Assembly: GCF_014200495.1 (NCBI RefSeq)
Contig: NZ_JACHBY010000009.1
Coordinates: forward strand, 1-64,000
DNA length: 64,000 nucleotides
From: Mucilaginibacter geliditolerans
Lineage (GTDB): Bacteria; Bacteroidota; Bacteroidia; Sphingobacteriales; Sphingobacteriaceae
Reading direction: 5' to 3'
Part shown: one piece after another, positions 42,231 to 63,856 of the stretch
How the letters are laid out: each line of letters opens with the position of its first letter
How positions within the stretch are numbered: position 1 is the stretch's first letter
Program-made: the position numbers and the translations under genes
The notes under the pieces: generated by a model
What the model was told of the DNA's origin: nothing
Seen by the model: the letters and a program-made list of their open reading frames with translations, nothing else
The model's database searches: none

Positions 42231-43481
42231 TTAGCCCGTTATATTAAAAGTCTTTTTAGCCTGAATTGGAAATGGATATACATCTACCTTGGGCTTAACA
42301 ATTTTTACTTCTTTACTCTTCGCTGCCACATAATATAAGAATCCTACAAAAACTACGGTTCCTAAAAAGTTAGTTACCAGGTTATCAAAAAACATAAATG
42401 AATACCGCAGCAGATAAACCAGGGCAATCAAATACCCTTTATTTTTAGATTTCTTAGCGAAAAATACACCTAATGAAATATCGGCTATTAAAAATAGGCA
42501 TAATCCTACTACGCCTAAATCGTAAGCAATTTTTAAAAAGTCATTATGCACTTCGAAAAATTGATCATAGTAGTGAGGCGAAACATTGATGTATGAGCCA
42601 ATGCCTTTTCCGAATAAAATTACATCCCTGCTATTTAAATCTTTTAAATAATAGCTCCAGTTCTGCAATCGCCATTTAAGGGAATCCAAGCTCATGTCCC
42701 CAAATCCGGAAGAACCACCAATCTTCACCTTATCATTCCAGTCAGTTTTATCGGCTAACGCAATTAATGCGGCATATATAACATAAAGACAATAAGCAGA
42801 AGCTGCAACGATTAAATTTTTAATAGATTTAGCCTTAACCCTGTCTACTGCAAAAACAGCAATTACAATTATTATTGATGCGATTAAAGAGGTTCTGCCA
42901 CCCAAAACAATCATCAGTATAAATAAAAGGCCTATGATATGAAGTTTAAGTTTTTCAATATTTAGTAATATTAAAAAACTTAAAAATAAGTTAGCAGAAT
43001 TAGCATGCCCAAAAACACTTCCGGTTGTGCTTTTATCACCCAAACCGGCATAAGCTAATGGAACTTGTATACAAAGTACAAAGAAAAATATTTTCAGAAA
43101 CTGACCAAATTGTTGTTTAAAAAATGCAAAAGATAATTGATCAAGCCTTGTAGCATAATAACACGCTATAATATAATAGAAAAAATAGCTGAACAAGTCG
43201 CTAAATCCCTTTAGGCTAAACCCATTTAAATAAATGCTAAAAGCCGCATATCCAAACAAAATCCAATATAGAAACAGCCCTTTCGGAAAAAGGCTTGAAG
43301 CTTTACTTTTTTGTAACTGGAGTACAACTATTACAAGTATGAATGCACTGATAACATTTAATACAGTATTTGGAAATAATCTATATGTAAATAATAATTG
43401 GCAAAAGCATCTGATAAGAATCATTTTAAAAATGAATTTATCAAACCTATACTTTTTTGAATTTATACTCAGTTCGCTCAT
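42231..43481 (-). CDS. Wzy-like O-antigen polymerase/ligase family protein
   Basis: A 416-residue integral membrane protein with about ten to twelve hydrophobic segments and a large periplasmic loop around residues 255-310 (ADKTDWNDKVKIGGSSGFGD ... ISPHYYDQFFEVHNDFLKIAYDLG). The EVHNDFLKIAYDLGVVGL stretch is typical of the O-antigen ligase/Wzy family (Wzy_C). In this Wzx/Wzy-style operon it most likely polymerises repeat units. Start at ATG 43481. Confidence 0.85.
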   Translation of the reverse strand: MSELSINSKKYRFDKFIFKMILIRCFCQLLFTYRLFPNTVLNVISAFILVIVVLQLQKSKASSLFPKGLFLYWILFGYAAFSIYLNGFSLKGFSDLFSYFFYYIIACYYATRLDQLSFAFFKQQFGQFLKIFFFVLCIQVPLAYAGLGDKSTTGSVFGHANSANLFLSFLILLNIEKLKLHIIGLLFILMIVLGGRTSLIASIIIVIAVFAVDRVKAKSIKNLIVAASAYCLYVIYAALIALADKTDWNDKVKIGGSSGFGDMSLDSLKWRLQNWSYYLKDLNSRDVILFGKGIGSYINVSPHYYDQFFEVHNDFLKIAYDLGVVGLCLFLIADISLGVFFAKKSKNKGYLIALVYLLRYSFMFFDNLVTNFLGTVVFVGFLYYVAAKSKEVKIVKPKVDVYPFPIQAKKTFNITG

Positions 43482-43600: not shown

Positions 43601-44341
43601 TTAATCTAAATCCTTGAGTACATTACTTATACCGCCATCTATGTTTAGATTGGCACCGTTTATAAAGCCTAATTTATCTTCGGCTAATAACAGGGCTAAT
43701 TGCGAAACTTCCTGTGGCTTACCAATACGCTGACTTGGATGCAGTTCGTTTAACATGCGTACTTTGGCTTCATCATTATTAAAACCATCACGCAGCATTT
43801 GTGTATCTATAGCGGCCGGGCTTATTGAATTTACTCTTACCCTGCCCTGCAAATCAACAGAAAGAGCTTTAGTTAATCCTACTAATGCACTCTTTGAGGT
43901 TGCATAAGCTAAAAACTTCTTTTTTGTTAACTGATGATGTATACTGGCAATATTAATTATTGAACCATGAGAGCTTTCCAATCTATCAAGAAAAAGCTGG
44001 CTCAGCATTAAAGGGCCGGTTAAATTAACATTCAACGTTTGATTCCAGTCGTCAATTTTAACTTCAGACAAGCTGCTCAATATCTGTACCGCTGCATTAT
44101 TTATTAAAAGGAATAGCTCCGGTATCTCTTTATTTAAGATATCTTCCATGTGAACCTTATAAGCAGGCTCAGCACAATACTTGTGAAGATCAAACCGGAT
44201 AAACTTTTCACAATATGGTGAAGGCTGATCTACCAGATCAAGCCCCACCACGCGGTAATTACTTTCATTGAATGTGCGTGCCAACTGGCTGCCAATGCCG
44301 CCAAGTACGCCTGTTATTAATACCGTTTTTCTGTTATCCAT
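43601..44341 (-). CDS. short-chain dehydrogenase/reductase
   Basis: A 246-residue classical SDR. The cofactor motif is TGVLGGIGSQLARTF, NNAAV follows, and the catalytic residues are Ser in INIASIHH and Tyr-x3-Lys in YATSKSALVGL. The C-terminal part ends with DGGISNVLKDLD, typical of beta-ketoacyl-reductase-like SDRs. It is 5 nt downstream of the 2-hydroxyacid dehydrogenase gene and part of a three-gene module with a cytidylyltransferase. Probably it reduces or oxidises a sugar-acid intermediate; the substrate is unknown. Confidence 0.85.
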   Translation of the reverse strand: MDNRKTVLITGVLGGIGSQLARTFNESNYRVVGLDLVDQPSPYCEKFIRFDLHKYCAEPAYKVHMEDILNKEIPELFLLINNAAVQILSSLSEVKIDDWNQTLNVNLTGPLMLSQLFLDRLESSHGSIINIASIHHQLTKKKFLAYATSKSALVGLTKALSVDLQGRVRVNSISPAAIDTQMLRDGFNNDEAKVRMLNELHPSQRIGKPQEVSQLALLLAEDKLGFINGANLNIDGGISNVLKDLD

Positions 44342-44346
44342 TCAAA

Positions 44347-45282
44347 TTATTTAATTTCAAGAAAGCCAAATAATAAATCAATTGCTTTTAAACTTGCACG
44401 TATTACTGCTTCCCTGGTATTTGAGCCATTGTGGGTTCCCAGAATACATTGCTCAAAACTACGTAAAGGACTGTCTATAGGCAGAGGTTCTGTTTCAAAA
44501 ACATCCAAACCTGCAGACCGCACTTTGCCCGACGTTAATGCTGCTGTTAAAGCAGTTTCATCAATTAAGCCGCCGCGCGATACATTTATTACTATTACGC
44601 CATCCTTCATCTTAGCGATGCTCTCAGCATTTATTAAATGAAAGTTTGATGGTGTTAATGCGCAGGTAAGTAAAACAAAGTCTGCCTGTTCCAGCTTGTC
44701 AGGGAAAGCTAATATTTCGTCAACATTAGCTTCAGCGGCTGTTAGTTTCGTAAACGGATCGTAAGCATTTACTTTTACGCCAAATGCTTTAAGCCTGCGT
44801 GCAGTAGCTAAACCTATATCACCTATACCTATAAGGGCTACAGTTTTCCCATCAAGAGACATACCCGCCGGTTTTATCCAATTACCAGCACGCACTTCCC
44901 TGTCAACACGATAGCTTTCACGGGCCAAGCCGGTAAAATATGCCAGCGCCATATCGGCAACTTCGTTACCAAACATGCGTGGTGTGTTTGAAATAGGTAT
45001 GCCTAATTTTTCGCATGCCTTAAAGTCAACATTATCAACTCCAACGCCCCATTTTACCGCTACTCTTAGCTTGCCGTTTTTACCCGCAGTAAAAACTTTT
45101 TCCGTTGCGGGGTCATCACCTATAATCCAGGCGTCTACTGTGGGTACAATTTCAATAAGTTCTTCTTCAGAGAGTATTTGTACAACGTTTGGAGTTACCA
45201 GTTCAATACCCTTTTCATCAAAAATATATCTTAGCTGATCAATAGCCCTTAACATTGGCGGGCATGTTATTAAAACTTTCAT
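44347..45282 (-). CDS. D-isomer-specific 2-hydroxyacid dehydrogenase (phosphoglycerate dehydrogenase-like)
   Basis: A 311-residue NAD-dependent oxidoreductase that interconverts 2-hydroxyacids and 2-ketoacids. The Rossmann motif is VALIGIGDIGLATARRL with the NAD-selecting Asp in NAYDP. VINVSRGGLIDETAL and the catalytic His region LGTHNGSNTREAV are present, along with RVAVKWGVGVDNVDFKACE near the N-terminus. There is no C-terminal ACT domain, so this is not a complete SerA. It lies 2 nt from the cytidylyltransferase gene and 5 nt from the SDR gene, so the three enzymes probably act in one short pathway. Confidence 0.88.
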   Translation of the reverse strand: MKVLITCPPMLRAIDQLRYIFDEKGIELVTPNVVQILSEEELIEIVPTVDAWIIGDDPATEKVFTAGKNGKLRVAVKWGVGVDNVDFKACEKLGIPISNTPRMFGNEVADMALAYFTGLARESYRVDREVRAGNWIKPAGMSLDGKTVALIGIGDIGLATARRLKAFGVKVNAYDPFTKLTAAEANVDEILAFPDKLEQADFVLLTCALTPSNFHLINAESIAKMKDGVIVINVSRGGLIDETALTAALTSGKVRSAGLDVFETEPLPIDSPLRSFEQCILGTHNGSNTREAVIRASLKAIDLLFGFLEIK

Positions 45283-45284
45283 GC

Positions 45285-45962
45285 TTATAATTTATGTATT
45301 TGTTTGTATAGCAGTTCTGCCATAATAAAGTTCAATTCCACATCAATGTCCTGTGCTTCCTGCTCAGCCATCTCATACAAAAAAGGCCTGTCACCAATAC
45401 GATTGTGTTTTCTTTCGAGTATAGCTTTTGTAAAGATGTACATGCAGGAATTTTCCTCAAAAACAGGCGGAAGATCCTGGGTACGCAACAAAATATTAGG
45501 ATTATGATTAAGGGGCCTTGCCAAACCATCCCAATACCTTACTTGCTTGCGTGTAACCGAAAACAAAGAATCGTACATTGGATATACTTCAAAAAATTTC
45601 TTTATACCTGCTTCTATTGTAGCCGATGAAAGTATTGGATTTGTACTATGTGTTTGTAAATAAAATTCTGACGGCACCTGGTTTATTGTATTCATTAATA
45701 CATCATTCATCGGTATACCGCCATCACGCAAATGTTCAGGCCTTTCTAACACCAATACATCCGGAAAGTATTTATTGCTTTGCTCAATAACAATAGGGCT
45801 ATCGGTATCAATAACTACCTTATCAATTAATGAGCAGTCAAGCAAAGAGCTTACTATGTGATGAAATAATGGTTTTCCGGCAAAGTCGCGGTAATTTTTC
45901 CCAGGCACTCTCTCGCTGGAATGGCGCATTGGTACAATTGCGGTTAATTTATAAGCAGACAT
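45285..45962 (-). CDS. acylneuraminate cytidylyltransferase-family protein
   Basis: A 225-residue nucleotidyltransferase of the CMP-NeuAc/CMP-Kdo synthetase fold. The N-terminal CTP-binding motif is AIVPMRHSSERVPGKNYRDF, followed by GKPLFHHIVSSLL. QTHSTNPILS also fits the family. Members transfer CMP to a 2-ketoacid sugar or to related acids. No NeuB-type synthase or other sialic acid gene is in the window, so the activated molecule is unlikely to be assigned as sialic acid. It is the first gene of the tightly packed three-gene module (2-nt gap to the dehydrogenase). Confidence 0.85.
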   Translation of the reverse strand: MSAYKLTAIVPMRHSSERVPGKNYRDFAGKPLFHHIVSSLLDCSLIDKVVIDTDSPIVIEQSNKYFPDVLVLERPEHLRDGGIPMNDVLMNTINQVPSEFYLQTHSTNPILSSATIEAGIKKFFEVYPMYDSLFSVTRKQVRYWDGLARPLNHNPNILLRTQDLPPVFEENSCMYIFTKAILERKHNRIGDRPFLYEMAEQEAQDIDVELNFIMAELLYKQIHKL

Positions 45963-51327: not shown

Positions 51328-52632
51328 TTAACTTATATAAGCTTTTATTACATCAACAAAATAATCATAATGGGTTTCATTAAGGCCCGGCCAAACTCCC
51401 AGCCAAAATGATCTGTTCATAATTATATCTGTATTGGTAAGCTCACCAGATACCCTATGGTTTATATTTTCATAAGCTGGCTGGCGTAATAAATTGCCAC
51501 CGAATAACAATCTTGTGCCTATTTTTTTCTCTTCCAGGTGCTGTACCAGCATATGACGGTCGGCAGCATCACCCTCACGTAATGTAAGTAAGAAGCCAAA
51601 CCATGAAGGGTCAGACTCTGGCGTAGCCTCAGGCAATATGAAAATATCTTCGAACTGTTTCATACGTTCATGAAGCGCTTTAAAGTTCTCTCTCCTCCTG
51701 TTTACAAAATGATCAAGTTTTTTCAGTTGTGATACACCAAATGCGGCCTGCATATCAGTAACTTTAAGGTTAAAGCCAATATGGGAGTAAGTGTATTTAT
51801 GATCATATCCAAAAGGGAGTGAGCCTAATTGCTGAGAAAAACGGCAGCCGCATGTATTGTCTTTACCTGGTTCGCAATAGCAGTCCCTTCCCCAATCACG
51901 AAAACTTTCAGCCACTTTAGCCAGTACAGGGTTATTTATTAATACAGCTCCGCCTTCGCCCATGGTAATATGATGCGCCGGATAAAATGAGAAAGTAGCG
52001 ATATCGCCAAAAGTGCCTGTTTTTTTACCGCGATAAGTTGCACCTAGTGAATCGCAATCATCTTCAACAACCCATAAGTTGTATTTTTTGGCAACACGCA
52101 TTACTTCATCCAAATTAAATGGATTACCCAATGAGTGCGCTATCATTATAGCTTTTGTTTTTGGTGAAACAGCGGCTTCAATTAAATCTGCCTGAACATT
52201 ATGCGTAGCAATATCAACATCTATGAATACCGGTATTGCACCAAACTGAATCATTGGGTTTACCGTAGTTGGGAAACCTGCTGCAACGGTAATTACTTCG
52301 TCACCTGGCTTTATTGCTCTTTCACCCAATTTAGGTGATGTAAGCGCATAAAATGCTACCAGGTTAGCCGATGATCCGGAGTTTACTAAAAGCGCTTTAG
52401 GGGCTTTAAAATACTCGGCGAAAGATTTTTCAAAATCATTTGAAAAACGACCGGCAGTTAACCATCCGTCAAGAGCTGCGTCTACACCCAGCAAAATATC
52501 TTCTTCATCCAGTACTTTACCTGTAACAGGTATATAATTTTGCCCTGCTATGATAGGACGGTTTATATTAGGCTGCAATGCCTGGGTTAAATGACCCTTA
52601 AGTTCACTATTGATATTTTTAAAATCTTTCAT
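51328..52632 (-). CDS. rfbH: CDP-4-dehydro-6-deoxyglucose 3-dehydratase (E1)
   Basis: A 434-residue PMP- and [2Fe-2S]-dependent enzyme of the DegT/DnrJ/EryC1 fold that removes the C3 hydroxyl of CDP-4-keto-6-deoxyglucose. The Lys of ordinary aminotransferases is replaced by His in [15 protein letters not shown] (H220), the E1 hallmark. The iron-sulfur cysteines are C193 (EDDCDSLG) and C251, C253 and C261 ([14 protein letters not shown]), at the same positions reported for the Yersinia enzyme. [14 protein letters not shown] binds the cofactor. It needs an electron-donating reductase; the flavin/[2Fe-2S] gene at 60395 is the candidate. It lies 26 nt after the SDR gene. Confidence 0.95.
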
Positions 52633-52658
52633 CTGCTATAAGCGGTTTTCTTTAATTA

Positions 52659-53714
52659 TTAATCTGTTGTTTTATACCAGTCGATGGTTTTTTTAAGTGC
52701 AGTGTCAAAGTCAAACACCTGTTTTACTTTCAACTCTGATTTTATCAGGTCGATATCCGGTACCGAAACAGATGGATGAGAGGGGTATTGTTTAGAATAC
52801 CTAATCAGGATCTCAATTTTTTGTGTAAAGTTCGAAGTAACCTTTGATGCCAAGGTTTTTAACGAAATAGGCTGTTCGCCGCCAATGTTATACGTTTCAC
52901 CACTTTTGCTATTTGCTAAAATTTTCAGCAGCCAAAAAGCCATATCGCTACCATATAAATAACTTCTAACAGTTTCTTCGTTACCCAATATTCTTATCGG
53001 GCCACCTAATATGCCATCGCGTATAAAGTTGTTGATGGCCCATGGTTTTTCTAAACCTTGGTATGGTCCGATAAAAGCAAAGGGCCTAACTATTACAATA
53101 GGTAGTTTTTGTTGATTACGGAATATCGCACAAACTGTTTCGGCCAACCGTTTGCCTTCGCTATATGCAGAGTTAACTGTATTGCAATCCAGGGCTCCTA
53201 TCTGAGTTTCTTTTATCTTATCAGGATGGCCAGCCAATTGCCCATAAACGCTATTTGAACTAATATGAACAACCTTATTCAGGTTATTTAAACGCAGGCA
53301 TGCATCAAGCACAGCGTGAGTTCCTCTGTATATTGTATCAATTGTTTTTAACGGATTAGTGGTATGCTTACGGTTATCCGGAGATCCGGCGGCATGTATC
53401 ACATAACTAATATCATCAGGAAAATTACTTACATTTCTAACGTCCTGTTCAAGTAATGTAATAAAAGATAGTTTGGCCAAATGCGGAACTTCTTCTTTAT
53501 ATTCCTGTACGTTGCGTGCTAAAATGTATAATTTGATGTTAAAACCATGTTCATGATTTAACAATGAAACGGCTTCCGCAATCCATTTACCAACAAAACC
53601 GGTACCACCTGTTACTAGTATGGATTGATCACGTAAAACACTCAATGCCTGTTTATAATCGGATAACGATTTCTGACAATCAGCCTTCAATAGGTTTATT
53701 AACTCTTGTTTCAT
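52659..53714 (-). CDS. NAD-dependent epimerase/dehydratase-type SDR (CDP-sugar reductase candidate)
   Basis: A 351-residue extended SDR with about 30 residues before the Rossmann motif ILVTGGTGFVGKWIAE. Catalytic Tyr-x3-Lys is in NSAYSEGKRLAETVC, preceded by SSNSVYG. The C-terminal domain has RPFAFIGPYQGLEKPWAINN and ETYNIGGEQPISLKTLA. It overlaps the aldolase gene by 4 nt (ATGA-type coupling). In the yersiniose-type pathway a last reduction of the keto branch or ring is needed, so a reductase or epimerase on a CDP-3,6-dideoxysugar is the best guess. A similar protein is encoded at 57455. Confidence 0.82.
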   Translation of the reverse strand: MKQELINLLKADCQKSLSDYKQALSVLRDQSILVTGGTGFVGKWIAEAVSLLNHEHGFNIKLYILARNVQEYKEEVPHLAKLSFITLLEQDVRNVSNFPDDISYVIHAAGSPDNRKHTTNPLKTIDTIYRGTHAVLDACLRLNNLNKVVHISSNSVYGQLAGHPDKIKETQIGALDCNTVNSAYSEGKRLAETVCAIFRNQQKLPIVIVRPFAFIGPYQGLEKPWAINNFIRDGILGGPIRILGNEETVRSYLYGSDMAFWLLKILANSKSGETYNIGGEQPISLKTLASKVTSNFTQKIEILIRYSKQYPSHPSVSVPDIDLIKSELKVKQVFDFDTALKKTIDWYKTTD

Positions 53715-54721
53715 TTCTTTTTGCGTTTTACCAGATCCAAAACTACTTCAATGATCAAATCTTCCTGACCAGCTACTACTTTACGGCGACCTAATTCAAA
53801 ATAAACATCGCGTTGATCAACCTTGTATTCGTTGGATATTCGCGTAACGTGTTTTGAAAATCCGGAGAATACGCCAGCCAAACCGCTCACTATACTTTCT
53901 GATTTGATGATAGGCACCAATGGCATAATTTCTCTTTCGGCGATATCGGCAGCATCTAATATTTTGTACAGATCAATTCCGGTAGTGTAACCCATTTTAG
54001 CTAAAACGGCTATCAATACTTCTAATTGAGCATTGCCAGCACCAGCGCCAAACCCACGTGCGGTACCATCTAACATAGTAGCTCCCGCTTCAACAGCGGC
54101 AATAGAATTGGCAATGCCTAAACCAAGGTTATTGTGTCCATGAAAACCAATTGGAATAGACAAACCTTCTACCAATGCTGAAATACGTTCCGTTACGTCG
54201 CTTGGAAGGTAGGCCCCCGCTGAATCCATAATAATAATGCCTTCGGCACCGTAGAGTTCCATTTTTTGGGCTTCTTCAACCAACAAGTCGGCTGATGCCA
54301 TGTGGCTCATCATTAAAACTCCATAGGTTTCTTTGCCTTTTTCTCGGGAGTAACCTAAATGGCGCTGGGTGATATCGGCTTCGGTACAATGTGATGCTAC
54401 ACGTATTACATCTACTCCAATTTCAATGGCTCTTTTTAGGTCGCGATTTATGGTGGCAAAACCAGGTATTACATGAATACCCAACTTGCTTGTATGTAAA
54501 TGCGCCTTAGCTGTTTCAAGTAATACCACATCGGTTTCTTTACTTTCGCCAACCTGTAATGATGATGCACCTAAGCCATTACCGTGGCCAACTTCTACAA
54601 TAGGTACTGCTGCCTTATCTGCGGCCTCGCAATATGTGGCTATTTGCTTGGCTGATAGTTGATGAGCTACCGCATGATTTCCATCCCTGAGTGTTGGATC
54701 GCTTATTAAAATGGATTTCAT
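53711..54721 (-). CDS. 4-hydroxy-2-oxovalerate aldolase-like (DmpG/BphI family)
   Basis: A 336-residue metal-dependent pyruvate aldolase. Active-site residues by family: R12 and D13 in DPTLRDGNH, H16, and metal ligands H194 and H196 in GFHGHNNLG. THCTEAD-like ASHCTEADIT and LDGTARGFGAGAGNAQLEVL also fit. The Tyr that in DmpG/BphI sits in AGVYSSF is Phe here (F285, AGVFSGF). The substrate-pocket segment is HVIPGFAT instead of the usual LLLPGIGT. These point to altered aldehyde or stereochemical preference. It overlaps its dehydrogenase partner by 1 nt and the SDR by 4 nt. In a CDP-sugar operon it probably works in synthesis, not aromatic breakdown. Confidence 0.88.
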   Translation of the reverse strand: MKSILISDPTLRDGNHAVAHQLSAKQIATYCEAADKAAVPIVEVGHGNGLGASSLQVGESKETDVVLLETAKAHLHTSKLGIHVIPGFATINRDLKRAIEIGVDVIRVASHCTEADITQRHLGYSREKGKETYGVLMMSHMASADLLVEEAQKMELYGAEGIIIMDSAGAYLPSDVTERISALVEGLSIPIGFHGHNNLGLGIANSIAAVEAGATMLDGTARGFGAGAGNAQLEVLIAVLAKMGYTTGIDLYKILDAADIAEREIMPLVPIIKSESIVSGLAGVFSGFSKHVTRISNEYKVDQRDVYFELGRRKVVAGQEDLIIEVVLDLVKRKKK

Positions 54722-55617
54722 TAATTTAAATTCAGGTTAACTGGGTTTGTGATAATTCTCTTTTTTGCATATTCTTCTGCAACAGCAATTGCAGCACAAT
54801 TTATAATATCAAGGTTACCTGCGTATTTGGGCAGATAATCACCCAATCCTTGTGCCTTAACCATTACCACTATTCTATTATTTTCAAAAATAGGGGCAAC
54901 TAATAGCTGATAACCAGGTACATAAGTATTAATTTTTTCAACCATGCGATTTACTGCCTCGGTTAAACCTTTGATATTGGGTTCTTTAACCTTTGCAAAT
55001 ATGGTGGTTTGCATATCTATGCATGGATTGGCTGGGTTCAAATTTAATATGGCCTTTGTTTTTTTAGCGTTTGAGAAAATCCTTACGCCTTCTTCTGTAG
55101 TTTCAATATACTCATCTAAGTTTAAACGTGTAGCCGGGCCCGCGCTTCGTGATGATATGGATGATACCACTTCGATATATTCTACTTCGGCATGAGTTTG
55201 ACCAATCAAATAAGCGATTGGTATAGATGCTTGCCCGCCACAAGTTACCATGTTCACATTTTGCTGTTCTATGGAATCGGCAAGATTAACCGCCGGAATA
55301 CATAAACCGCCTAATTTAGCAGGCGTCATGTCTACAACTATTTTGCCTAATTTTTTCAGGATGTCCCAATGGTATTTAGCATCTTTTGCTGATGTGGCAT
55401 CAAAAACCAGGTCGCAGCAATCCGGATCCTTTACAATCGCATTGATACTCTGATCGGATACCTTAACACCCAAACTAATAGCTTTTGCCATACCCGGCGA
55501 AGCCAGGTTACGACCTATAAACAGCACGCATTCTAAATATTCAGATCGCTGGATCTTAATAAGCAGGTCGGTTCCTATATTTCCGCTTCCTAATATGGCT
55601 ACTTTTAATTTGCTCAT
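54721..55617 (-). CDS. acylating acetaldehyde dehydrogenase (DmpF family)
   Basis: A 298-residue NAD- and CoA-dependent dehydrogenase interconverting acetaldehyde and acetyl-CoA. The NAD motif is ILGSGNIGTDLL (G10, G12, G15). The catalytic Cys is C126 in NMVTCGGQASIP, as in DmpF/BphJ. Further family sequence is VVDMTPAKLG and SSRSAGPATRLNLDEY. An ATG at 55623 would add MI; ATG 55617 agrees better with the family. DmpF forms a channelling complex with DmpG, and the next gene, overlapping by 1 nt, is that aldolase. In this operon the reverse direction (acetyl-CoA to acetaldehyde) is a reasonable inference. Confidence 0.9.
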   Translation of the reverse strand: MSKLKVAILGSGNIGTDLLIKIQRSEYLECVLFIGRNLASPGMAKAISLGVKVSDQSINAIVKDPDCCDLVFDATSAKDAKYHWDILKKLGKIVVDMTPAKLGGLCIPAVNLADSIEQQNVNMVTCGGQASIPIAYLIGQTHAEVEYIEVVSSISSRSAGPATRLNLDEYIETTEEGVRIFSNAKKTKAILNLNPANPCIDMQTTIFAKVKEPNIKGLTEAVNRMVEKINTYVPGYQLLVAPIFENNRIVVMVKAQGLGDYLPKYAGNLDIINCAAIAVAEEYAKKRIITNPVNLNLN

Positions 55618-55632
55618 AATCATACCTTTTAA

Positions 55633-57444
55633 CTACACCTCTATTACTTTTGACTTTTCATGTAAACCGCCAATCATGTTTTCGCTTAATTCTTCTCGTG
55701 ATAAAAACGGAGAAAGATCTTCTAATGGCGGCGAAATTAAACTACCATCTTTTTGTATGGCCAACGCTAGTTTTGGCACAAATAATTGTTGCGGGTGCAT
55801 AAACACTTCACAAATAACCGGTCCTTCAAATGCCTGAACTTGTGGTATTACATTATCAAAATCATCCCAGGTACGTATTTGAAAGCTTTTAATATCAAAG
55901 GCTTTGGCAAGAGCGGTAAAATCCGGACAGGTTACTCCCGATGCCTCATCTACGCCGGCGCGCCTGCCCTTAAATAATGCATTTTGTGTATGCTTTATCA
56001 TTAAATAACCATCGTTATTAAAAATAAAAAGCTTAATTGGCAACTGGTGGTGAACCATGGTTTGTAACTCCTGCAGGTTCATCATCATACCGCCATCACA
56101 ATTCAGGCACATTACTTCGCCTTTGTTTCTGGCAAATGATGCACCTAACGCAGCTGGTAAACCGTAGCCCATTTCGCCTAAACCTGTTGATGTTAACAAC
56201 CGTTGGCCTTTATGCAACTTTAAAGCCTGGTGGCCGCTAAGCAAAGCCGTACCCATATCGGTAACTATTATCTGGTCGGCTTTTAAATGATTATTCAACT
56301 TATCCATAAAGGCATAAGAATTTATAAAACCATCAGTATCTGGGTGGTCGCTATCATTGGCCCATGGATATTTTTCGCGATACTCATCACATTTTGCAAC
56401 CCAGGCAGCAATTGGCTTACTATCAAATCTCTCCTTTAGCAAAATTTCTAAAAAGTCTTTTGCATCGGCATGTATAGAATGCTTAACTCTTGATGGATAT
56501 TTTTCCAACTCATCAGCGTCAATATCAACCACAGCAATTTCGGCATCGCGGGCAAACTCGGTAATATCGTAACCTACTTGAGGTATCGCTAATCGTGTAC
56601 CTATACAAAGCAAATAGTCGCAATTTTGCAATACAAAATTTGCACACCGTTGCCCGTATGTGCCGGCACGGCCGTATACCAATGGATGATAGGAATCAAC
56701 CATATCAATGCCAGCCCAGGTAACCAGTGCCGGTATACCAAATTCATTCATTAGTTTTTCAGCCAGATCAGTAGCGCCTGCCAACCTGATACCATGCCCA
56801 AGCCAAAGCAATGGCCTTTTTGCATTTTTCAGATCAGATATTACATCTTTTATAACACTTGTTAAGTGACTGTCTTTTGTTTTATTCGTTTCAGGATAAG
56901 TAAATGCTTTTAACTGACTTTCATCAACTATTGTTGATTGAATATTCATTGGTATATCCAACCAACACGGGCCGGGCCTGCCTTCGCCAGCTATGTAATA
57001 GGCCTTATCCAATTCAAGTTTTGTTTCGAGCGCGTCTGTTACCTGCTTGGCATACTTGGTCACTTTTGATACCATACCCGAACTATCATAACCTTGCACC
57101 CCCCACATACGGAGGTTTTTATGGGTATCAACATATTTTGAATGTTCGTTACCCGCTATTATCAAACACGGGATAGAATCGGCCCAGGCGCTTACAACAC
57201 CTGTAACACCGTTGGTAGAGCCTGCACCAGTTGTTAACAGGGCTGCACTTATTTTACCGTTAATACGATAATAAGTTTGAACTGCCATACATGCAGCTTG
57301 CTCATGGTGAACGCAAACTATCTGGGTATACCCTTTTTTGTATATTGAATCGAATATATGGGCATTACCAGCACCAATAATTCCAAATACTTGTTGTATC
57401 CCTTTTTCCTCTAAAAAATCCGCAATCAGATCACTTATTTTCAT
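55633..57444 (-). CDS. thiamine-diphosphate-dependent C-C ligase (YerE/acetolactate-synthase-like)
   Basis: A 603-residue ThDP enzyme. The PYR domain has the catalytic Glu E48 in VCVHHEQAACMAVQ. The central domain follows, and the PP domain has LNCDGGMMMNLQELQT and IFNNDGYLMIKHT, the ThDP/Mg2+ motif. GLGEMGYGLPAALGASFARN is typical. YerE of Yersinia, a homologous enzyme, transfers the acyl anion from pyruvate to C4 of CDP-4-keto-3,6-dideoxyglucose. Gene context (rfbF, rfbG, rfbH, E3-type reductase) supports the same role here. The 2-ketoacid donor may be pyruvate or the aldol product of the neighbouring DmpG-like enzyme. Confidence 0.9.
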   Translation of the reverse strand: MKISDLIADFLEEKGIQQVFGIIGAGNAHIFDSIYKKGYTQIVCVHHEQAACMAVQTYYRINGKISAALLTTGAGSTNGVTGVVSAWADSIPCLIIAGNEHSKYVDTHKNLRMWGVQGYDSSGMVSKVTKYAKQVTDALETKLELDKAYYIAGEGRPGPCWLDIPMNIQSTIVDESQLKAFTYPETNKTKDSHLTSVIKDVISDLKNAKRPLLWLGHGIRLAGATDLAEKLMNEFGIPALVTWAGIDMVDSYHPLVYGRAGTYGQRCANFVLQNCDYLLCIGTRLAIPQVGYDITEFARDAEIAVVDIDADELEKYPSRVKHSIHADAKDFLEILLKERFDSKPIAAWVAKCDEYREKYPWANDSDHPDTDGFINSYAFMDKLNNHLKADQIIVTDMGTALLSGHQALKLHKGQRLLTSTGLGEMGYGLPAALGASFARNKGEVMCLNCDGGMMMNLQELQTMVHHQLPIKLFIFNNDGYLMIKHTQNALFKGRRAGVDEASGVTCPDFTALAKAFDIKSFQIRTWDDFDNVIPQVQAFEGPVICEVFMHPQQLFVPKLALAIQKDGSLISPPLEDLSPFLSREELSENMIGGLHEKSKVIEV

Positions 57445-57454
57445 TTAACGTTTT

Positions 57455-58501
57455 CTATTTTAGGTAACTATCTATTGTTCTTTTAAAGCCAGTAGATATG
57501 CTGGTTTCCGGATTCCATCCTAATGCCAACAATTTATCTACGTTAGGTGTATTACGCAATAATGGGCTTTTTAAATATTGTACACCGTCATTAACCGGTG
57601 CTTTTATTACTTTTAAATCCTGGGTACTAATTGATGTTAGCGTTTCGGCAAGCTCAAGTATGGTATATTCTTGGTCCGGATTGCCTACATTATAGGCTTC
57701 ACCTGGCTTGCCTTTAAGCAGTACCATAAAAAAACCAATAGTTGCGTCCGCAAGGTAGCAAAACGCGCGGCTTGCAGAGCCATCGCTTTTCATTTCAATA
57801 TCACGGCCGTTAACAATATCAGCAACAAAATCGGCATACACCCGCCCATCATTCAACTGCATACCAGGTCCATATGTATGAAAAGGTCTCACCACATTAA
57901 TATTGATATTATATTGCGTGTAATAACTCACGCAAATATTTTCCCCCATTCTTTTACTTTCGCCGTAACACGCTCGTACTTTCATAGGGTCAATATATCC
58001 GTAGTAATCTTCTTTTACTGGATTAAAAGCCTCATCAACCTGCCCATAAACCTCACCCGAACTAAAGAAAAGAAAGGATGTAAGGTGTTTTTGCCTGGCA
58101 AAGTTTAGCAAGTTAATTGTTCCAAGAACATTTGCGCTTAAAGTGCCCACAGGATCGATTCCATAATATTTAGGGCTCGCCTGGCTTGCCGCATGAACTA
58201 TGTAATCAACATCTGATTTTAGTGTGATAATATCACATACATCTTGCTCAATAATAAGCAAGTTATTGTCGTGAAGGTAATCTTTAAATTTTTCGTTCGC
58301 ATTATTTCTATTTCTCACAAGCGCTATAACTTTCACATTGAAGCCAGGTATTTGTTGGTTCAAAAAAAGCAATGTGTAAACCATGTAAGCCGGTAAAAAT
58401 CCGTTTGCGCCAGTTATTAAAACTGTTTTATTAGCAAGCTTATCCCAACCAATATCTGTTGAAATAATTTTCAATAAATCACCTTTTATAATCTCATTCA
58501 T
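57455..58501 (-). CDS. NAD-dependent epimerase/dehydratase-type SDR, CDP-sugar module
   Basis: A 348-residue extended SDR. The Rossmann motif is VLITGANGFLPAYMVY, with a 26-residue N-terminal extension like the related gene at 52659. SSGEVYG and the catalytic Tyr-x3-Lys in RACYGESKRMGENIC are present. FHTYGPGMQLNDGRVYADFV resembles the substrate region of sugar-nucleotide decarboxylases/epimerases. It sits between the ThDP enzyme (10 nt) and rfbG (7 nt). A role as epimerase or reductase on the CDP-branched sugar fits context; the reaction is not established. Confidence 0.82.
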   Translation of the reverse strand: MNEIIKGDLLKIISTDIGWDKLANKTVLITGANGFLPAYMVYTLLFLNQQIPGFNVKVIALVRNRNNANEKFKDYLHDNNLLIIEQDVCDIITLKSDVDYIVHAASQASPKYYGIDPVGTLSANVLGTINLLNFARQKHLTSFLFFSSGEVYGQVDEAFNPVKEDYYGYIDPMKVRACYGESKRMGENICVSYYTQYNININVVRPFHTYGPGMQLNDGRVYADFVADIVNGRDIEMKSDGSASRAFCYLADATIGFFMVLLKGKPGEAYNVGNPDQEYTILELAETLTSISTQDLKVIKAPVNDGVQYLKSPLLRNTPNVDKLLALGWNPETSISTGFKRTIDSYLK

Positions 58502-58508
58502 GACGACT

Positions 58509-59606
58509 TTACTCTAATCCGACTGATTTGTTGGTTAAAAAGTTCAATATCTGTTTTTGCGTAAATGCGGCTATGTTATCTTTATCAGTAAAATAGCTAT
58601 TGTACCAGGTAACTGTATAATCCAAAGCCGTATCGGCATTAAATTGGGGTTTCCATCCTATTTCAACCAGTGCTTTGCTAATGTCAAGCTTTAATAAACC
58701 GGCTTCGTGCGGCTGATTTGGATTTTGTTTAACAAAATATGACCCATTACCCCAGTATTTTACAGCCAACTCAACCATTTGTTTTACAGGTAAAGCATCA
58801 TTAAAATTTGGCCCAAAATTAAATGCTGTACTATATTTTTCAGGATTGCCCAGCAGTTTTGTTCCTAATAATAAATAACCAAGCAACGGTTCCAGCACAT
58901 GTTGCCATGGCCTAACTGCGTCTGGATTTCTTATCTCTACCTGTTCACCTTTTGATAAGGCCATTATTATATCTGGTATAAGTCTATCCTTGGCCCAATC
59001 ACCGCCACCTATTACATTACCCGCGCGGGCAACAGCTATTGCTTTTTGATGTATGCTGTATTTATTGATGTTAAAAAACGAATTGCGATACGAATCGATC
59101 ACCAGTTCGGTACATGCTTTACTAGCGCTATATGGGTCATAACCACCTAAACGGTCATTTTCACGATAAGGGTAAACCCACTCATTGTTATGATATACCT
59201 TATCAGTGGTTATCATTACCGCATAGCAGGGTTTGGTTAACTGACGCATACCTTCCAAAACATTGGCCGTACCTATTGCATTTATTTCAAATGTATCTAC
59301 AGGTATATCATATGATAATCGAACCAGAGGTTGCGCCGCCAGGTGAAATATAAAATCGGGCTGAAAATCGGTTATTGCTTTACTCAAGGTTTGCCTGTCC
59401 CTCAAATCGGCTATTACCGAGCTGCATAGCTTATCGCCATTTAAAAGGTGATAAAGGTCAAAATCATTCTCAGGAGTCAAAGCATAACCCTTAACTTCAG
59501 CGCCGAGCATTGAAAATATTTTCAATAACCATGACCCTTTAAAACCCGTATGCCCAGTTAAAAAGATCTTTTTTCCTTTATATGTAGTTTTCAGTTTTTC
59601 GAACAT
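58509..59606 (-). CDS. rfbG: CDP-glucose 4,6-dehydratase
   Basis: A 365-residue extended SDR making CDP-4-keto-6-deoxyglucose. The NAD motif is FLTGHTGFKGSWLLKI. TTDKVYHNNEWVYPYRENDR and GGYDPYSASKACTELVI (catalytic Tyr/Lys) are diagnostic of RfbG. RAGNVIGGGDWAKDRLIPDI is also typical. The first ATG (59624) lies 18 nt earlier and overlaps the rfbF stop; the ATG at 59606 directly follows that stop and fits the family N-terminus. Either start is possible. Confidence 0.95.
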   Translation of the reverse strand: MFEKLKTTYKGKKIFLTGHTGFKGSWLLKIFSMLGAEVKGYALTPENDFDLYHLLNGDKLCSSVIADLRDRQTLSKAITDFQPDFIFHLAAQPLVRLSYDIPVDTFEINAIGTANVLEGMRQLTKPCYAVMITTDKVYHNNEWVYPYRENDRLGGYDPYSASKACTELVIDSYRNSFFNINKYSIHQKAIAVARAGNVIGGGDWAKDRLIPDIIMALSKGEQVEIRNPDAVRPWQHVLEPLLGYLLLGTKLLGNPEKYSTAFNFGPNFNDALPVKQMVELAVKYWGNGSYFVKQNPNQPHEAGLLKLDISKALVEIGWKPQFNADTALDYTVTWYNSYFTDKDNIAAFTQKQILNFLTNKSVGLE

Positions 59607-59608
59607 AT

Positions 59609-60382
59609 TTACCAAATTTTCCATAATGCCTGATCACTATTCCACATTTCATTTAAATCATGCTTGTCCTTTAGGGTATCCATTGGTCTCCAAAATCCGT
59701 CATGCTTAAAAGCTTTCATCTGCCCGGCTTCAGCAATTTTTTCCATCGGTTCTTTTTCCCATACGGTACTGTCTCCTTGTTTTATAAAATCAAATACCTC
59801 TGGTTGACAAACCATATAACCACCATTTATCCATGAGCCATCACCCTTAGGCTTTTCCAAAAAAGAGCGAACTTCGTTTTCGGGAGACAATTCCAAAGCA
59901 CCGAACCTACCCGATGGCTGTACCGATGTTACTGTGAAAAGTTTACCATGCTCTTTATGATATTCTGCAAGTCTCTTTATATCAATGTTTCCTACACCAT
60001 CACCATAGGTTAACAGAAAAGGCTCGTTGCCAATATAAGGCTGAACACGTTTTATCCTGCCACCTGTCATTGAATCATTACCTGTGTCAACAAGAGTTAT
60101 AGTCCATGGTTCTGCCTGGCTATCATGTACTTTTATTGAATTATCTTTTAAATCAATGGTAACATCTGATTTATGTAAAAAATAATTGGCGAAATACTCC
60201 TTTATCAAATATCCTTTGTATCCCAGGCAAATAACAAAATCATTAAAGCCATGAGAAGAATATATTTTCATTATATGCCATAATATTGGCATACCACCTA
60301 TTTCAACCATAGGTTTGGGCTTTAATACTGTTTCTTCAGATAACCTTGTACCTAATCCCCCGGCTAATAATACTACTTTCAT
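59609..60382 (-). CDS. rfbF: glucose-1-phosphate cytidylyltransferase
   Basis: A 257-residue enzyme that makes CDP-glucose from CTP and glucose-1-phosphate, the entry to all CDP-3,6-dideoxysugars. The nucleotide motif is LAGGLGTRLSEETVLKPKPM followed by VEIGGMPILWHIMK. LTYGDGVGNIDI, EKPKGDGSWINGGYMV and FWRPMDTLKDKHDL are specific to RfbF. It lies 12 nt after the reductase gene and directly before rfbG. Confidence 0.97.
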   Translation of the reverse strand: MKVVLLAGGLGTRLSEETVLKPKPMVEIGGMPILWHIMKIYSSHGFNDFVICLGYKGYLIKEYFANYFLHKSDVTIDLKDNSIKVHDSQAEPWTITLVDTGNDSMTGGRIKRVQPYIGNEPFLLTYGDGVGNIDIKRLAEYHKEHGKLFTVTSVQPSGRFGALELSPENEVRSFLEKPKGDGSWINGGYMVCQPEVFDFIKQGDSTVWEKEPMEKIAEAGQMKAFKHDGFWRPMDTLKDKHDLNEMWNSDQALWKIW

Positions 60383-60394
60383 TTTTATAGATTT

Positions 60395-61438
60395 TTATAC
60401 TTTAAAACTAATGTTATCAGACAATGGGTAAGTACAGCATAGCAAATATTCATTTTCCAAAAGTTCTTCGGATAAATTTGCAGTACTTACCATTTTTACG
60501 TCACCCGTTTGCAGAGTTGCTTTACATATGGAGCAACTACCAGTTTGACACGAATAAGAGAGTTCTATGCCTGCATCAAGGCCTGCTTCAAGAATACTCC
60601 TTCCCTTTACAACTTCAACTATTTGTGGTAGTTGATCTTTAATGATTTCAACCGACCGGGTAATAACATTTTCAAAATCCTTACTGTCTTTTACAACTTC
60701 AAAGTCCTCTGAAAAGATATTAGCTTCACTAATTCCATATTTATTTAAGGCTCCTTTTACTGATTCTTTTAAGCCCAAAGGGCCGCATATATAATGCAAG
60801 GAATCACTAGATTTGTCGTTTTCTTTCAAAACTGAAAGAACTTTTGAAGGAGATATTCTCCCTTCAACATGATGCGGATGAGCATTACTTATACTTGCTT
60901 TTGACAAAAAGTGCCATACAGTAAAATTACTGTGTTCCTGGTTAAGCAATTTAATCTGATCCACAAATAAGGTATTTTCAAAATCACGGTTACCGTATAC
61001 TAAAGTGACTTCGTTTTTACGATTTTTTAGTAAAAATTTAGCAATTGATATAAGAGGTGTTATACCACTGCCCGCTCCCCAAAGAACGATAGGTGTACTG
61101 TCGTCAAGTTTAGTCAACTCAACCACAAAATGCCCCATCGGCGGCATTACTTCAACCAGGTCGTCAACTTTTAAGTTATCAATAATATGATTTGATACAA
61201 TACCTGAAAGAACACGTTTTACTGTTACATTTAAAGTAGCATCAACTCCCGGGGCTGACGAAAAAGAGTATGGCCTTATATATCTCCGCCCGTTTATTCT
61301 AAATATTAAAGTTAAATACTGCCCTGGCTGATAAATCACCTTTTTCAAGCCCGGCTGTTTAAAACAAATAGTTACTGCATCTGTCGTTTCTTGCCGAACA
61401 TCAGCCACTTTAAGCATGTATGTAATTAAATTCGACAT
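60395..61438 (-). CDS. flavin/[2Fe-2S] reductase, candidate E3 partner of RfbH
   Basis: A 347-residue ferredoxin-NAD(P)H reductase-type protein. The FAD domain has RRYIRPYSFSSAPG near residue 55. The NAD domain has VLWGAGSGITPLISIAKFLL. A C-terminal plant-type [2Fe-2S] domain carries SCQTGSCSICKATL and a last Cys in EYLLCCTYP. Known E3 enzymes (AscD/DdhD) have the ferredoxin domain first; here it is last, as in PaaE-type reductases. Gene context next to rfbF/rfbG and with rfbH argues that it supplies electrons for C3 deoxygenation. It could alternatively serve an unknown oxygenase. Confidence 0.85.
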   Translation of the reverse strand: MSNLITYMLKVADVRQETTDAVTICFKQPGLKKVIYQPGQYLTLIFRINGRRYIRPYSFSSAPGVDATLNVTVKRVLSGIVSNHIIDNLKVDDLVEVMPPMGHFVVELTKLDDSTPIVLWGAGSGITPLISIAKFLLKNRKNEVTLVYGNRDFENTLFVDQIKLLNQEHSNFTVWHFLSKASISNAHPHHVEGRISPSKVLSVLKENDKSSDSLHYICGPLGLKESVKGALNKYGISEANIFSEDFEVVKDSKDFENVITRSVEIIKDQLPQIVEVVKGRSILEAGLDAGIELSYSCQTGSCSICKATLQTGDVKMVSTANLSEELLENEYLLCCTYPLSDNISFKV

Positions 61439-61465: not shown

Positions 61466-63856
61466 TTATCTTTTTAACAATTTTGATAGTAAGCTTTTCT
61501 TTTTAGCGGGCTCAGCATATCCGCCATAGCCATAACCATAACCGTAACCATAACCGTATCCATAACCGTATCCGTAATAGCCTTTTTGCTGTGCTTTAAT
61601 ATCGTTTACAATTAAATAGGTTCTTTTCAATTTCTCTTCATATACCAGCTTGTTCAATATGTCCAGCTGTGCTTTGAAAGTATAGTTTTGGCGAACTACA
61701 TAAAGTGAGAGATTTACGAATTTCTCTAATATTAATGCATCTGCCACCAATCCTACAGGTGAACTGTCAATAATTATGAAATCGAATTTCTTTTTTAAAG
61801 CCTCAATTAATATTTCCAGTTTCTCACTCAATAATATTTCAGACGGGTTTGGCGGAATAGTACCAGCGCTTATTAAAAAGCAATTTTCACTAAAAAACAG
61901 TGGTTTAATATAAGGTTCTATATCATTGCTCTCAGATACAATGTAATTTGAAAACCCATTTACATTTTCGATACCTAAGTTTAAAGACAATTTTGGTTTT
62001 CGAAGATCCAGCTCTAAAAAGACAACCTTTTTACCTGTTAATGCCAGGGTACTGCCTAAATTCAGGGATATAAATGTTTTACCCTCGCCACTCATGCTCG
62101 ACGTAAACATTATAACCTGTGGTTCATTCTGCTTTATTAAATACTGCAAATTGGTACGCAGCGCTCTAAATTGTTCAGAGATCAGTGTTCGTGAATTTTC
62201 TACAACAACTAAACTGGTATTTTCAGCATTGTTTCCAATCTCGGCAACTATAGGTATCCTGGTATTTTTTTCAATATCTTGTTTTGAAATTATTTTAAGG
62301 TTTAAACTATCTCTAAAAAACAAGAAACCAAAAGGGAACAGCATTCCGACTACTACACCCAAAGCATAAATTAAATTTTTCTTTGGTTTATACGCTTCTG
62401 CATCACTTTTCGCATCATCAATAATCCTTGCGCTTGAAATAGTAGATGTTTTAGAGATCATTGTCTCTTCTCTTTTTTGCAAAAGGAATAAATATAATTC
62501 CTGCTTCAAGTTTTGTTGTCTCGAGTAGTCTAAGAATAAGCGCTCTTTTTCGGGTACTCCTTTAATTTGATTATTAAGCAAACTACTTCTGTCTTGAAGT
62601 CCACTTTTAGCAATTTGCAATCCTTTTTTATAAGCTTCAAAGCTTTTAAAAAGGCTAACCTTTACAGTTTCAATCTGATCATCGAGGCTTTTAACAACAG
62701 GATTGTCCTCTTTATAAGATAGGTTTAATTTACTCCTATCCATAAGCAACTCATTATATTTGCCAATTGCATCCGCAAACACCGGATCCTGATCCGTAAG
62801 TGAACTTGGTATAATTGTTTTATTTGCGGGATCTTTTATATATCTCTCAAGATCATCTATTACTGAGAGCTGAATTTCCTGCGTATTTAATTGATTATAA
62901 TAATCACTGGCGCTGGTAACCAAAGCTTTCGATTGTTCATCAGCGTCCGCTATATTATTTTCACGTTTAAATCCGGAGAAATTCTTTTCTACATCTGATA
63001 ATTCTCTTTGAACAATTACCAGGCGCCTGTTAATAAACGCAACCGTACTATCTGCTGTTTCAACTTTATACTCGAGGTTAGCTTTTAAATAATTATCCAT
63101 TAACGATTCTAAAATAACTTCGCCCTTTTTTGAAACGGGATATTTTAAAATAATATCTATACTGGTACTTTGCTTATCTGACAATTCCACATCCAAATTC
63201 TTGGATAATTCTTCTACTTTACTATCAACAGATTGCATTAAAAGCCTGAATTTACCTGTAGGGTTTTCGCCAAATGCCTTCTGCGAAAATTGCAAATCAT
63301 ATTCCTTCAATTTAATTGTATTGCCGTATTTTATAGTAGTATCAACATTGAAATCACTATTTTCTATATGGATCTGACCATTTTTTGCTATTTCGATATT
63401 ATAAACAGTAGCAGTTACTGAATCTGTTTTGAAGTTTGCGCTAACATTAAAAGGAGCATCGTTAAACAATTCGTCCTTTCTCAATCTTCCTTTCCTGTAT
63501 AAGGTGATATTCAGGTTCATTTGCCTTACAACTTTCTCCATTAAAGATCTGGAGTTTAATATATCAATCTCATTTTGAGCGTTACTTGGCAAATCAAATA
63601 AACTGGAAAAATCAGAAGATTGACTACTACTAAGCCCTCCACCAAGGCTTTTTTTATCATCTTCAATTAATAATTTACTGTTTATTTTATATTCGGGAGT
63701 TGCATATTTTATATATAGTACAGCGGCAAACAAGCAAATTATAATACTTATTATAAATAAATACCAACTGGAAATAATTTTACTTAATAGCTCTTTATAA
63801 TCAAAGCCTTCTTCATCCGCAAAATTCAAATTACTGTTGTGATCCTGGTTATTCAT
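61466..63856 (-). CDS. Wzc-type polysaccharide co-polymerase and tyrosine autokinase
   Basis: A 796-residue inner-membrane protein controlling polymer length and export. The Wzz/PCP domain begins after the first membrane span (about 31-52); coiled-coil sequence spans about 260-460; a second span is near 480-505. The BY-kinase has Walker A SGEGKT (K593), Walker A' VFLELDLRKPKL and Walker B FDFIIIDSSPVGLV. The tail is a GY repeat with 11 tyrosines in about 22 residues (YYGYGYGYGY...GGY), the autophosphorylation cluster, then a basic end (KKKSLLSKLLKR). It follows the wza-like gene by 10 nt. Confidence 0.94.
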   Translation of the reverse strand: MNNQDHNSNLNFADEEGFDYKELLSKIISSWYLFIISIIICLFAAVLYIKYATPEYKINSKLLIEDDKKSLGGGLSSSQSSDFSSLFDLPSNAQNEIDILNSRSLMEKVVRQMNLNITLYRKGRLRKDELFNDAPFNVSANFKTDSVTATVYNIEIAKNGQIHIENSDFNVDTTIKYGNTIKLKEYDLQFSQKAFGENPTGKFRLLMQSVDSKVEELSKNLDVELSDKQSTSIDIILKYPVSKKGEVILESLMDNYLKANLEYKVETADSTVAFINRRLVIVQRELSDVEKNFSGFKRENNIADADEQSKALVTSASDYYNQLNTQEIQLSVIDDLERYIKDPANKTIIPSSLTDQDPVFADAIGKYNELLMDRSKLNLSYKEDNPVVKSLDDQIETVKVSLFKSFEAYKKGLQIAKSGLQDRSSLLNNQIKGVPEKERLFLDYSRQQNLKQELYLFLLQKREETMISKTSTISSARIIDDAKSDAEAYKPKKNLIYALGVVVGMLFPFGFLFFRDSLNLKIISKQDIEKNTRIPIVAEIGNNAENTSLVVVENSRTLISEQFRALRTNLQYLIKQNEPQVIMFTSSMSGEGKTFISLNLGSTLALTGKKVVFLELDLRKPKLSLNLGIENVNGFSNYIVSESNDIEPYIKPLFFSENCFLISAGTIPPNPSEILLSEKLEILIEALKKKFDFIIIDSSPVGLVADALILEKFVNLSLYVVRQNYTFKAQLDILNKLVYEEKLKRTYLIVNDIKAQQKGYYGYGYGYGYGYGYGYGYGGYAEPAKKKSLLSKLLKR
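61519..61585. repeat. six-base-type tandem repeat encoding the Gly-Tyr tail
   Basis: On the minus strand the codons alternate GGN and TAY (for example GGT TAT GGA TAC GGT TAT). The DNA is therefore a degenerate hexanucleotide tandem array of about 10 units inside the wzc-like gene. Such arrays can gain or lose units in frame. Confidence 0.65.

Follow-up and report, generated by a model that had tools for sequence, protein, structure and literature searches.

Gene content of the cluster

In the window analyzed here, a stretch of 64,000 nucleotides (nt) from contig NZ_JACHBY010000009.1 of Mucilaginibacter geliditolerans, nine intact open reading frames follow one another on the minus strand between positions 61438 and 51328. 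They combine enzymes for a cytidine diphosphate (CDP)-activated 3,6-dideoxyhexose with a thiamine diphosphate (ThDP)-dependent carbon-carbon ligase, an acetaldehyde dehydrogenase and an aldolase of the DmpFG type, and two short-chain dehydrogenases/reductases (SDRs). Judging by these families and their recurrent linkage, we consider it probable that the nine genes constitute a pathway complete in itself, leading to an erwiniose-type sugar that is CDP-activated, 4-C-branched and has ten carbons. The branch would come from an aldol-derived donor. In the order of transcription, the genes are:

60395..61438, minus strand: E3-type FAD/NAD/2Fe-2S reductase, first of the nine (Pfam FAD_binding_6, NAD_binding_1 and Fer2), with a putative AscD/RfbI-like role
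59609..60382, minus strand: RfbF, glucose-1-phosphate cytidylyltransferase (TIGR02623, 420 bits against a cut-off of 300)
58509..59624, minus strand: RfbG, CDP-glucose 4,6-dehydratase (TIGR02622, 475 bits against a cut-off of 278)
57455..58501, minus strand: SDR1, extended SDR (Pfam Epimerase)
55633..57444, minus strand: ThDP-dependent C-C ligase of the CDG type, a relative of JanthE (three TPP_enzyme Pfam domains)
54721..55623, minus strand: DmpF-like acetaldehyde dehydrogenase (acylating) (TIGR03215, 383 bits against a cut-off of 282)
53711..54721, minus strand: DmpG-like 4-hydroxy-2-oxovalerate aldolase (TIGR03217, 395 bits against a cut-off of 286; DmpG_comm)
52659..53714, minus strand: SDR2, extended SDR (Pfam Epimerase)
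51328..52632, minus strand: RfbH, CDP-4-keto-6-deoxyglucose 3-dehydrase (E1) (NF011936, 705 bits against a cut-off of 423)

The successive intergenic distances are 12, -16, 7, 10, 9, -1, -4 and 26 nt; an original prediction from the sequence, which had described nine genes with gaps of at most about 30 nt or overlaps, was thus accurate as to position, intactness, strand and spacing. RfbF, RfbG, RfbH, DmpF and DmpG all pass curated NCBIfam cut-offs, and the CDP-3,6-dideoxyhexose pathway is represented by equivalogs of the cytidylyltransferase, the 4,6-dehydratase and the 3-dehydrase, with the reductase recognized by its Pfam domains only. The dehydrogenase-aldolase pair has the hallmarks of DmpFG/BphIJ, namely scores above both family cut-offs, the DmpG_comm domain, the catalytic and metal residues and the dehydrogenase cysteine. 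In the 6.5 Mb genome, the DmpG is the single one of its type (the sole other match at E <= 0.001 is 28% identical), the ligase has no close second (the next best is 30% identical), and the cluster RfbH is the only match at E <= 1e-20. Because such a DmpG is this rare (one in the window genome, and present in 5 of 395 Bacteroidota genomes at E <= 1e-60) and yet accompanies the ligase in 73 of 80 loci, the nine-gene grouping is far beyond chance.

A ligase of the JanthE type

Besides its three TPP_enzyme domains, the ThDP protein has the Glu of HHEQ, which we take to be of functional importance, and the rare CDG motif, which has Cys at its first position. It fell below all 25 NCBIfam cut-offs among the matches listed (53 families matched). 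Its best match in the PDB is 8rph (E 2e-259), followed at a distance by an acetolactate synthase (3e-78). The former is JanthE of Janthinobacterium sp. HH01 (PMC12188165), with which the window ligase shares 377 of 599 aligned residues (63%) as well as the CDG motif. The equivalents of JanthE V121, Y268, P293, Y297, H494, F564 and K567 are conserved, while S498 is replaced by Ala (the mapping is our own, the numbering in the paper being off by one relative to the PDB sequence). The earlier label 'YerE-like' therefore holds insofar as it denotes a ThDP ligase; it is otherwise loose, as the closest solved relative is JanthE, the comparison having been made without a YerE sequence.

JanthE accepts 4-hydroxy-2-oxovalerate together with benzaldehyde, and in 2025 its physiological substrates were described as not yet identified (PMC12188165). 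The likely genomic linkage of JanthE is suggested by its relatives: the three ligases nearest to it among 87 (98.7, 96.0 and 91.9% identical; Oxalobacteraceae) all have DmpFG in their loci.

Linkage of the ligase, DmpFG and CDP-sugar genes

To place the cluster in a wider context, we considered the best 80 of 93 loci with a relative of the ligase, searched with the nine cluster proteins at fixed score thresholds; since the stretches end at contig ends and at 10 kb, all counts are lower bounds. DmpF is present in 74 of them, DmpG in 73, SDR2 in 69, RfbH in 66, RfbF in 62, RfbG in 59, SDR1 in 27 and E3 in 14. DmpF accompanies DmpG in 72 of its 73 loci, and the two are same-strand neighbors in 67 of the 72 that have both. 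The 75 loci with DmpF or DmpG span 12 phylum labels, many of them attached to metagenome bins. The cysteine of the DmpF TCGG motif (residue 128) is retained in 73 of 75 rows, the remaining two having a gap.

Eleven of the 80 loci have DmpG with RfbF, RfbG and RfbH all absent from the stretch. A whole-genome search of seven of these recovered an RfbH match of 53-61% identity in five (one a partial frame); it found only a 33% match for L026 and none at E <= 1e-60 for L068, and the acceptor sugar of these two may differ. In L026 and L076 (Flavipsychrobacter) the order is DmpF-DmpG-SDR2-ligase with no RfbFGH in the stretch, and the L026 acceptor may not be a 3-deoxy sugar. Six other loci (L005, L008, L017, L021, L048 and L074) carry in the cassette an extra gene of one sequence group, which by eye resembles FkbM-type methyltransferases; some of the branched sugars may accordingly be methylated.

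The CDG motif is seen in 78 of the 80 ligases, with L058 having GDG and L023 falling outside the motif pattern, but the peptide NCDGGMMM was among the six used for the search and this count is hence uninformative on the distribution of the motif. Because of this bias, we also scanned genomes with whole proteins (DmpG at E <= 1e-60, ligase at E <= 1e-120 in Bacteroidota). Among the 395 Bacteroidota genomes, DmpG is present in five and the ligase in 11. Only the window genome and G316 have both at high identity, in each case as adjacent genes. The nine remaining ligases are remote (38-41%) and come from genomes without DmpG at the cut-off; five of them viewed in a wider context have GDG in 5/5 and, within the stretch, RfbH in 4/5 and RfbF with RfbG in 4/5. 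Conversely, the other three DmpGs are 44-49% identical and their genomes lack a ligase at the cut-off. The original prediction had called for a search of the dmpF-dmpG-yerE trio beside rfbFGH across this phylum: DmpG goes with both high-identity ligases, and the genomes of the nine remote ones have none at the cut-off.

The same partition is evident in 369 Gammaproteobacteria, where the ligase is found in five genomes and DmpG in 26 (27 places). The three CDG ligases (63-64%) belong to exactly the three genomes with a DmpG of 64-66% identity, in the same loci, while no genome combines either of the two GDG ligases (39-41%) with any of the other 24 DmpG places. Two of these DmpFG-bearing loci, L192:7630-16892 and L193:7532-16912, derive from gammaproteobacterial genomes of about 1.5 Mb and combine a CDG ligase with DmpFG, RfbF and RfbG; their RfbH-like protein shares only 34-36% identity with the window RfbH and is perhaps a true aminotransferase or another dehydrase, so that the acceptor may differ there. 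Plasmid records yielded no ligase at E <= 1e-80.

Alternative donor cassettes within the genus

Two relatives from the same genus, L126 and L127, retain the E3-RfbF-RfbG-SDR1 block and RfbH and are devoid of DmpFG. In L126 (L126:2111-13734) the intervening cassette codes for a GDG ligase (49%), followed by an HpcH/HpaI-family protein, a nucleotidyltransferase-like protein (36% identical to RfbF), a DJ-1/PfpI protein, a protein without a family, an Ldh_2 protein and a HAD protein; its product is probably a different branched sugar. In L127 (L127:5756-15266) it comprises a dehydroquinate (DHQ)-synthase-like protein, a GDG ligase (38%) and a NeuB-family protein, perhaps for a carbocyclic or long-branched sugar. 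As many members of the HpcH/HpaI family are pyruvate aldolases, DmpG seems to have given way to an unrelated pyruvate aldolase in L126. Of all the observations, this apparent swap is to us the strongest sign that the ligase receives an aldol product as its donor. It also points to a modular logic, in which one CDP-sugar chassis receives exchangeable donor cassettes with DmpFG, an HpcH/HpaI aldolase or a NeuB-type enzyme.

The active-site signature of the ligase-linked DmpGs

By the offset of the tyrosine, in a mapping of our own, we equate Leu88 and Tyr291 of the Pseudomonas CF600 DmpG (1nvm) with Leu87 and Tyr290 of BphI. At these positions His and Phe are found in all 80 rows compared, comprising the window protein, 73 proteins from ligase loci and six DmpGs from the same genus; five of the six genus rows duplicate a named locus (tree distance 0), giving about 75 distinct sequences, one of which (L113) has no ligase beside it. 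This His/Phe signature of the ligase-linked DmpGs is new here. In distant DmpGs (below 50% identity; 23 including 1nvm), Leu/Tyr occurs in 22 and Ile/Tyr in one; the 24 distant gammaproteobacterial places divide likewise into 23 and one, and L160 too has Leu/Tyr. We call the distant versions catabolic-like because 15 of the 19 plasmid records among them adjoin genes annotated as hydratase, fumarylacetoacetate-hydrolase-family or ring-cleavage proteins (of the others, L119 has no such neighbors and L140, L146 and L147 are unannotated there). A 96-row tree, built with a quick method and predating ten later plasmid sequences and the gammaproteobacterial set, splits 13 catabolic-like DmpGs from all others with a Shimodaira-Hasegawa-like approximate likelihood ratio test (SH-aLRT) value of 100. 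On the same tree, the DmpG of same-genus genome G499 (L108) is at distance 0 from L003, a Mucilaginibacter record, in keeping with the genus of the window. The equivalents of 1nvm Arg17, Asp18, His21, His200 and His202, which we take to be the catalytic and metal residues, are conserved in all 73 cluster sequences.

Three DmpGs from other biosynthetic-looking plasmid settings (54-59% identical) fall on the ligase-linked side of the tree: L114 and L115 have Phe/Phe, and L116 has His/Cys. In L114:11060-14361 and L115:11084-14221, from two Streptomyces plasmids, DmpFG is followed by KAS III and an acyl carrier protein. In L128:4988-9795 and L116:10739-15263, DmpFG adjoins an aminotransferase and the stretch lacks a ThDP ligase; transamination of 4-hydroxy-2-oxopentanoate could there make 4-hydroxynorvaline. 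We rejected the His/Phe signature as proof of a sugar role, given its presence in L113/L128, where the ligase is missing, and the altered pockets of L114, L115 and L116 in other settings.

BphI is restricted to the (4S) acid, both as product and as substrate, a control that is lost upon the change Y290F or Y290S; for its double variants L87N/Y290F and L87W/Y290F, the (4R) acid is the only substrate (PMC3962088). By analogy, we predict that the product of the window aldolase is the (4R) acid and not the (4S) acid of BphI. We take erwiniose to be 3,6,8-trideoxy-4-C-[(R)-1-hydroxyethyl]-D-gulo-octose. At C7 of that octose D corresponds to R, and the priorities match those at C4 of 4-hydroxy-2-oxopentanoate; therefore, a D-gulo product needs the (4R) acid. 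The His/Phe signature would thus agree with this presumed sugar configuration, both being unlike BphI. As to a more far-reaching proposal, our judgment is evenly divided: the DmpG lineage seen under the 12 phylum labels may have a natural (4R) preference, brought about by the Leu-to-His and Tyr-to-Phe changes, and may feed its acid to the CDG ligases, including JanthE, as their native donor, with the (4R) center becoming the D (R) C7 of a D-gulo erwiniose-type sugar.

The predicted pathway and its alternatives

From the genes and their families, order, co-occurrence and residues, we infer the following route. RfbF, RfbG, RfbH and the E3-like reductase would furnish CDP-4-keto-3,6-dideoxy-D-glucose as the acceptor. 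DmpF would convert acetyl-coenzyme A (acetyl-CoA) to acetaldehyde, and DmpG would condense it with pyruvate to 4-hydroxy-2-oxopentanoate, predicted to be (4R). The CDG ligase would then decarboxylate this acid and join the resulting 3-hydroxybutanoyl carbanion to the ketone at C4, which would become a tertiary alcohol bearing a four-carbon branch. The new ketone would be reduced by an SDR, and the finished sugar would go to the surface polysaccharide encoded around the cluster. Since six hexose carbons and four from 4-hydroxy-2-oxopentanoate minus CO2 make ten, the predicted sugar is of the erwiniose type. A four-carbon transfer to C4 through DmpF, DmpG and the ThDP enzyme, as originally proposed, is the reading with the best support, given the co-occurrence under 12 phylum labels, the genome scans and the aldolase swap in L126.

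Either SDR could reduce the new ketone. For a branch-specific step we favor SDR2, which goes with DmpG while SDR1 stays in the chassis. SDR2 occurs in 68 of the 73 loci with DmpG and in one of the seven without it, and is its same-strand neighbor in all 68 loci having both. SDR1, in turn, remains in the L126 and L127 chassis (64% and 59% identical) on exchange of the cassette; it is above threshold in only 27 of the 80 loci, several of the others having a different SDR in its slot. The YxxxK motif is conserved in all 28 rows of SDR1 and, in SDR2, retains Y in 69 and K in 67 of 70 rows.

Several observations weigh against a four-carbon, aldol-derived branch. JanthE also takes pyruvate in vitro (PMC12188165), and a two-carbon branch is compatible with the sequence. 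DmpG is missing from seven of the 80 ligase loci; three of these (L045, L047 and L063) are on short contigs or run up to a contig end, which is not true of L031, L058, L069 and L071, and CDG is present in three of the latter four. L031, whose ligase is 75% identical to JanthE, adjoins RfbFGH. L069 and L071 have CDG ligases of 51-53% identity with no DmpFG within the stretch; L069 also has transketolase-like halves, and in its genome the one DmpG at E <= 1e-40, which is 42% identical and has Leu/Tyr, lies on a different, longer contig. Within the genus (149 genomes; ligase in nine, DmpG in seven, both in six), three of the nine ligase genomes lack a DmpG match, although the contig of G523 ends inside DmpG and G500 and G430 carry other cassettes. 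The occurrence of dmpFG apart from CDP-sugar genes in relatives, which the original prediction had named as a refutation, is seen in one of the seven genus genomes with DmpG and in the 11 loci noted above, and thus applies in part; in the former, G496 (L128; L113), DmpFG with a His/Phe DmpG lies on a 12.9 kb contig with neither ligase nor RfbFGH. As regards stereochemistry, the BphI changes considered from PMC3962088 do not include L87H, and the position mapping is ours, so that the (4R) reading is one by analogy. Finally, DmpF may also reduce propionyl-CoA, as relatives do, which would lead to an eleven-carbon sugar.

Some of these points bear on an explanation that the original prediction had itself offered as simpler, namely that the ligase moves only the acetyl unit of pyruvate to C4, giving a yersiniose-like sugar, with DmpFG supplying or recycling acetaldehyde or pyruvate. 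The use of pyruvate by JanthE, the genes for the YerE acceptor sugar in the cluster and the DmpFG-free L031 locus speak for it. However, no aldolase is needed to supply pyruvate and yet one is present; DmpG tracks the high-identity CDG ligases in two scans, with the nine remote Bacteroidota ligases lacking it; in L126 the slot is filled by a different aldolase family; and the cluster DmpG, whose acceptor pocket is altered, forms part of a separate lineage. We therefore disfavor this explanation and consider it unlikely. Slightly less probable still is a longer or different branch, with DmpG joining pyruvate to propanal (from propionyl-CoA) or to a caryophyllose-like hydroxyaldehyde and giving a sugar of at least eleven carbons. 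The ErwE enzyme discussed below also takes 4-hydroxy-2-oxohexanoate (PMC12247030), and the altered 1nvm Leu88 position in all 80 rows would suit such a change, but the retention of DmpF in 72 of 73 DmpG loci points to a short acyl-CoA-derived aldehyde. That DmpFG is a catabolic or anaplerotic pair lying in a polysaccharide locus by chance, as the origin of the family names in meta-cleavage catabolism might suggest, is very improbable: none of the nine genes codes for a hydratase or ring-cleavage partner, the DmpG pocket is not Leu/Tyr, the DmpG stands apart from the catabolic ones on the tree, and the pair not only lies between ligase and RfbH but accompanies the ligase under 12 phylum labels.

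The genomic neighborhood

The cluster is flanked by a gene for a chain-length/tyrosine-kinase protein (61466-63856). The neighborhood also codes for glycosyltransferases, two hexapeptide-repeat proteins, a WecG-type transferase, further sugar-nucleotide enzymes and an O-antigen ligase/polymerase-like protein (42231-43481). Given these surrounding polysaccharide genes, the cluster product most likely enters a surface polysaccharide. Separately, a CTP_transf_3 cytidylyltransferase, a D-2-hydroxyacid dehydrogenase and a short SDR lie in a row at 43601-45962 and possibly form a second module, for a sugar acid activated with cytidine monophosphate (CMP) or CDP.

Relationship to known systems

The association described here provides a specific predicted donor for a set of ThDP ligases, including JanthE, which is studied as a biocatalyst. 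It also suggests that many Bacteroidota, Pseudomonadota and Verrucomicrobiota may contain ten-carbon branched sugars. The aldolases, if (4R) as predicted, would be of practical value. In the literature consulted we met no statement of a link between DmpFG and such ligases, though it may nonetheless already be in print.

The closest functional precedent is ErwE of Pectobacterium atrosepticum, which in vitro, with an acceptor analogue, joins a hydroxy-alpha-keto acid to CDP-4-keto-3,6-dideoxyglucose on the way to erwiniose; it is described as not using pyruvate and as preferring 4-hydroxy-2-oxobutanoate, -pentanoate or -hexanoate as donors (PMC12247030). Genes for both kinds of substrate, the 4-hydroxy-2-oxo acid and the CDP-4-keto-3,6-dideoxyglucose, are present in the cluster, and the reaction type and the 4-C-branched product proposed here are the same, a likeness drawn from the description of ErwE and not from its sequence. 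Erwiniose is a known ten-carbon branched sugar (PMC8657720), and the earlier claim of a new C10 branched sugar consequently does not stand, the predicted skeleton being that of erwiniose. The YerE/yersiniose system shares the proposed acceptor sugar and reaction type, but the donors of Yersinia pseudotuberculosis YerE are reportedly limited to pyruvate and 2-oxobutyrate (PMC12247030), which need no aldolase. The DmpFG/BphIJ pairs of meta-cleavage catabolism, in turn, share their families and their catalytic and metal residues with the cluster pair, whereas the cluster DmpG is set apart from them by its separate lineage, the replacement of Leu88 by His and of Tyr291 by Phe, and its biosynthetic setting.

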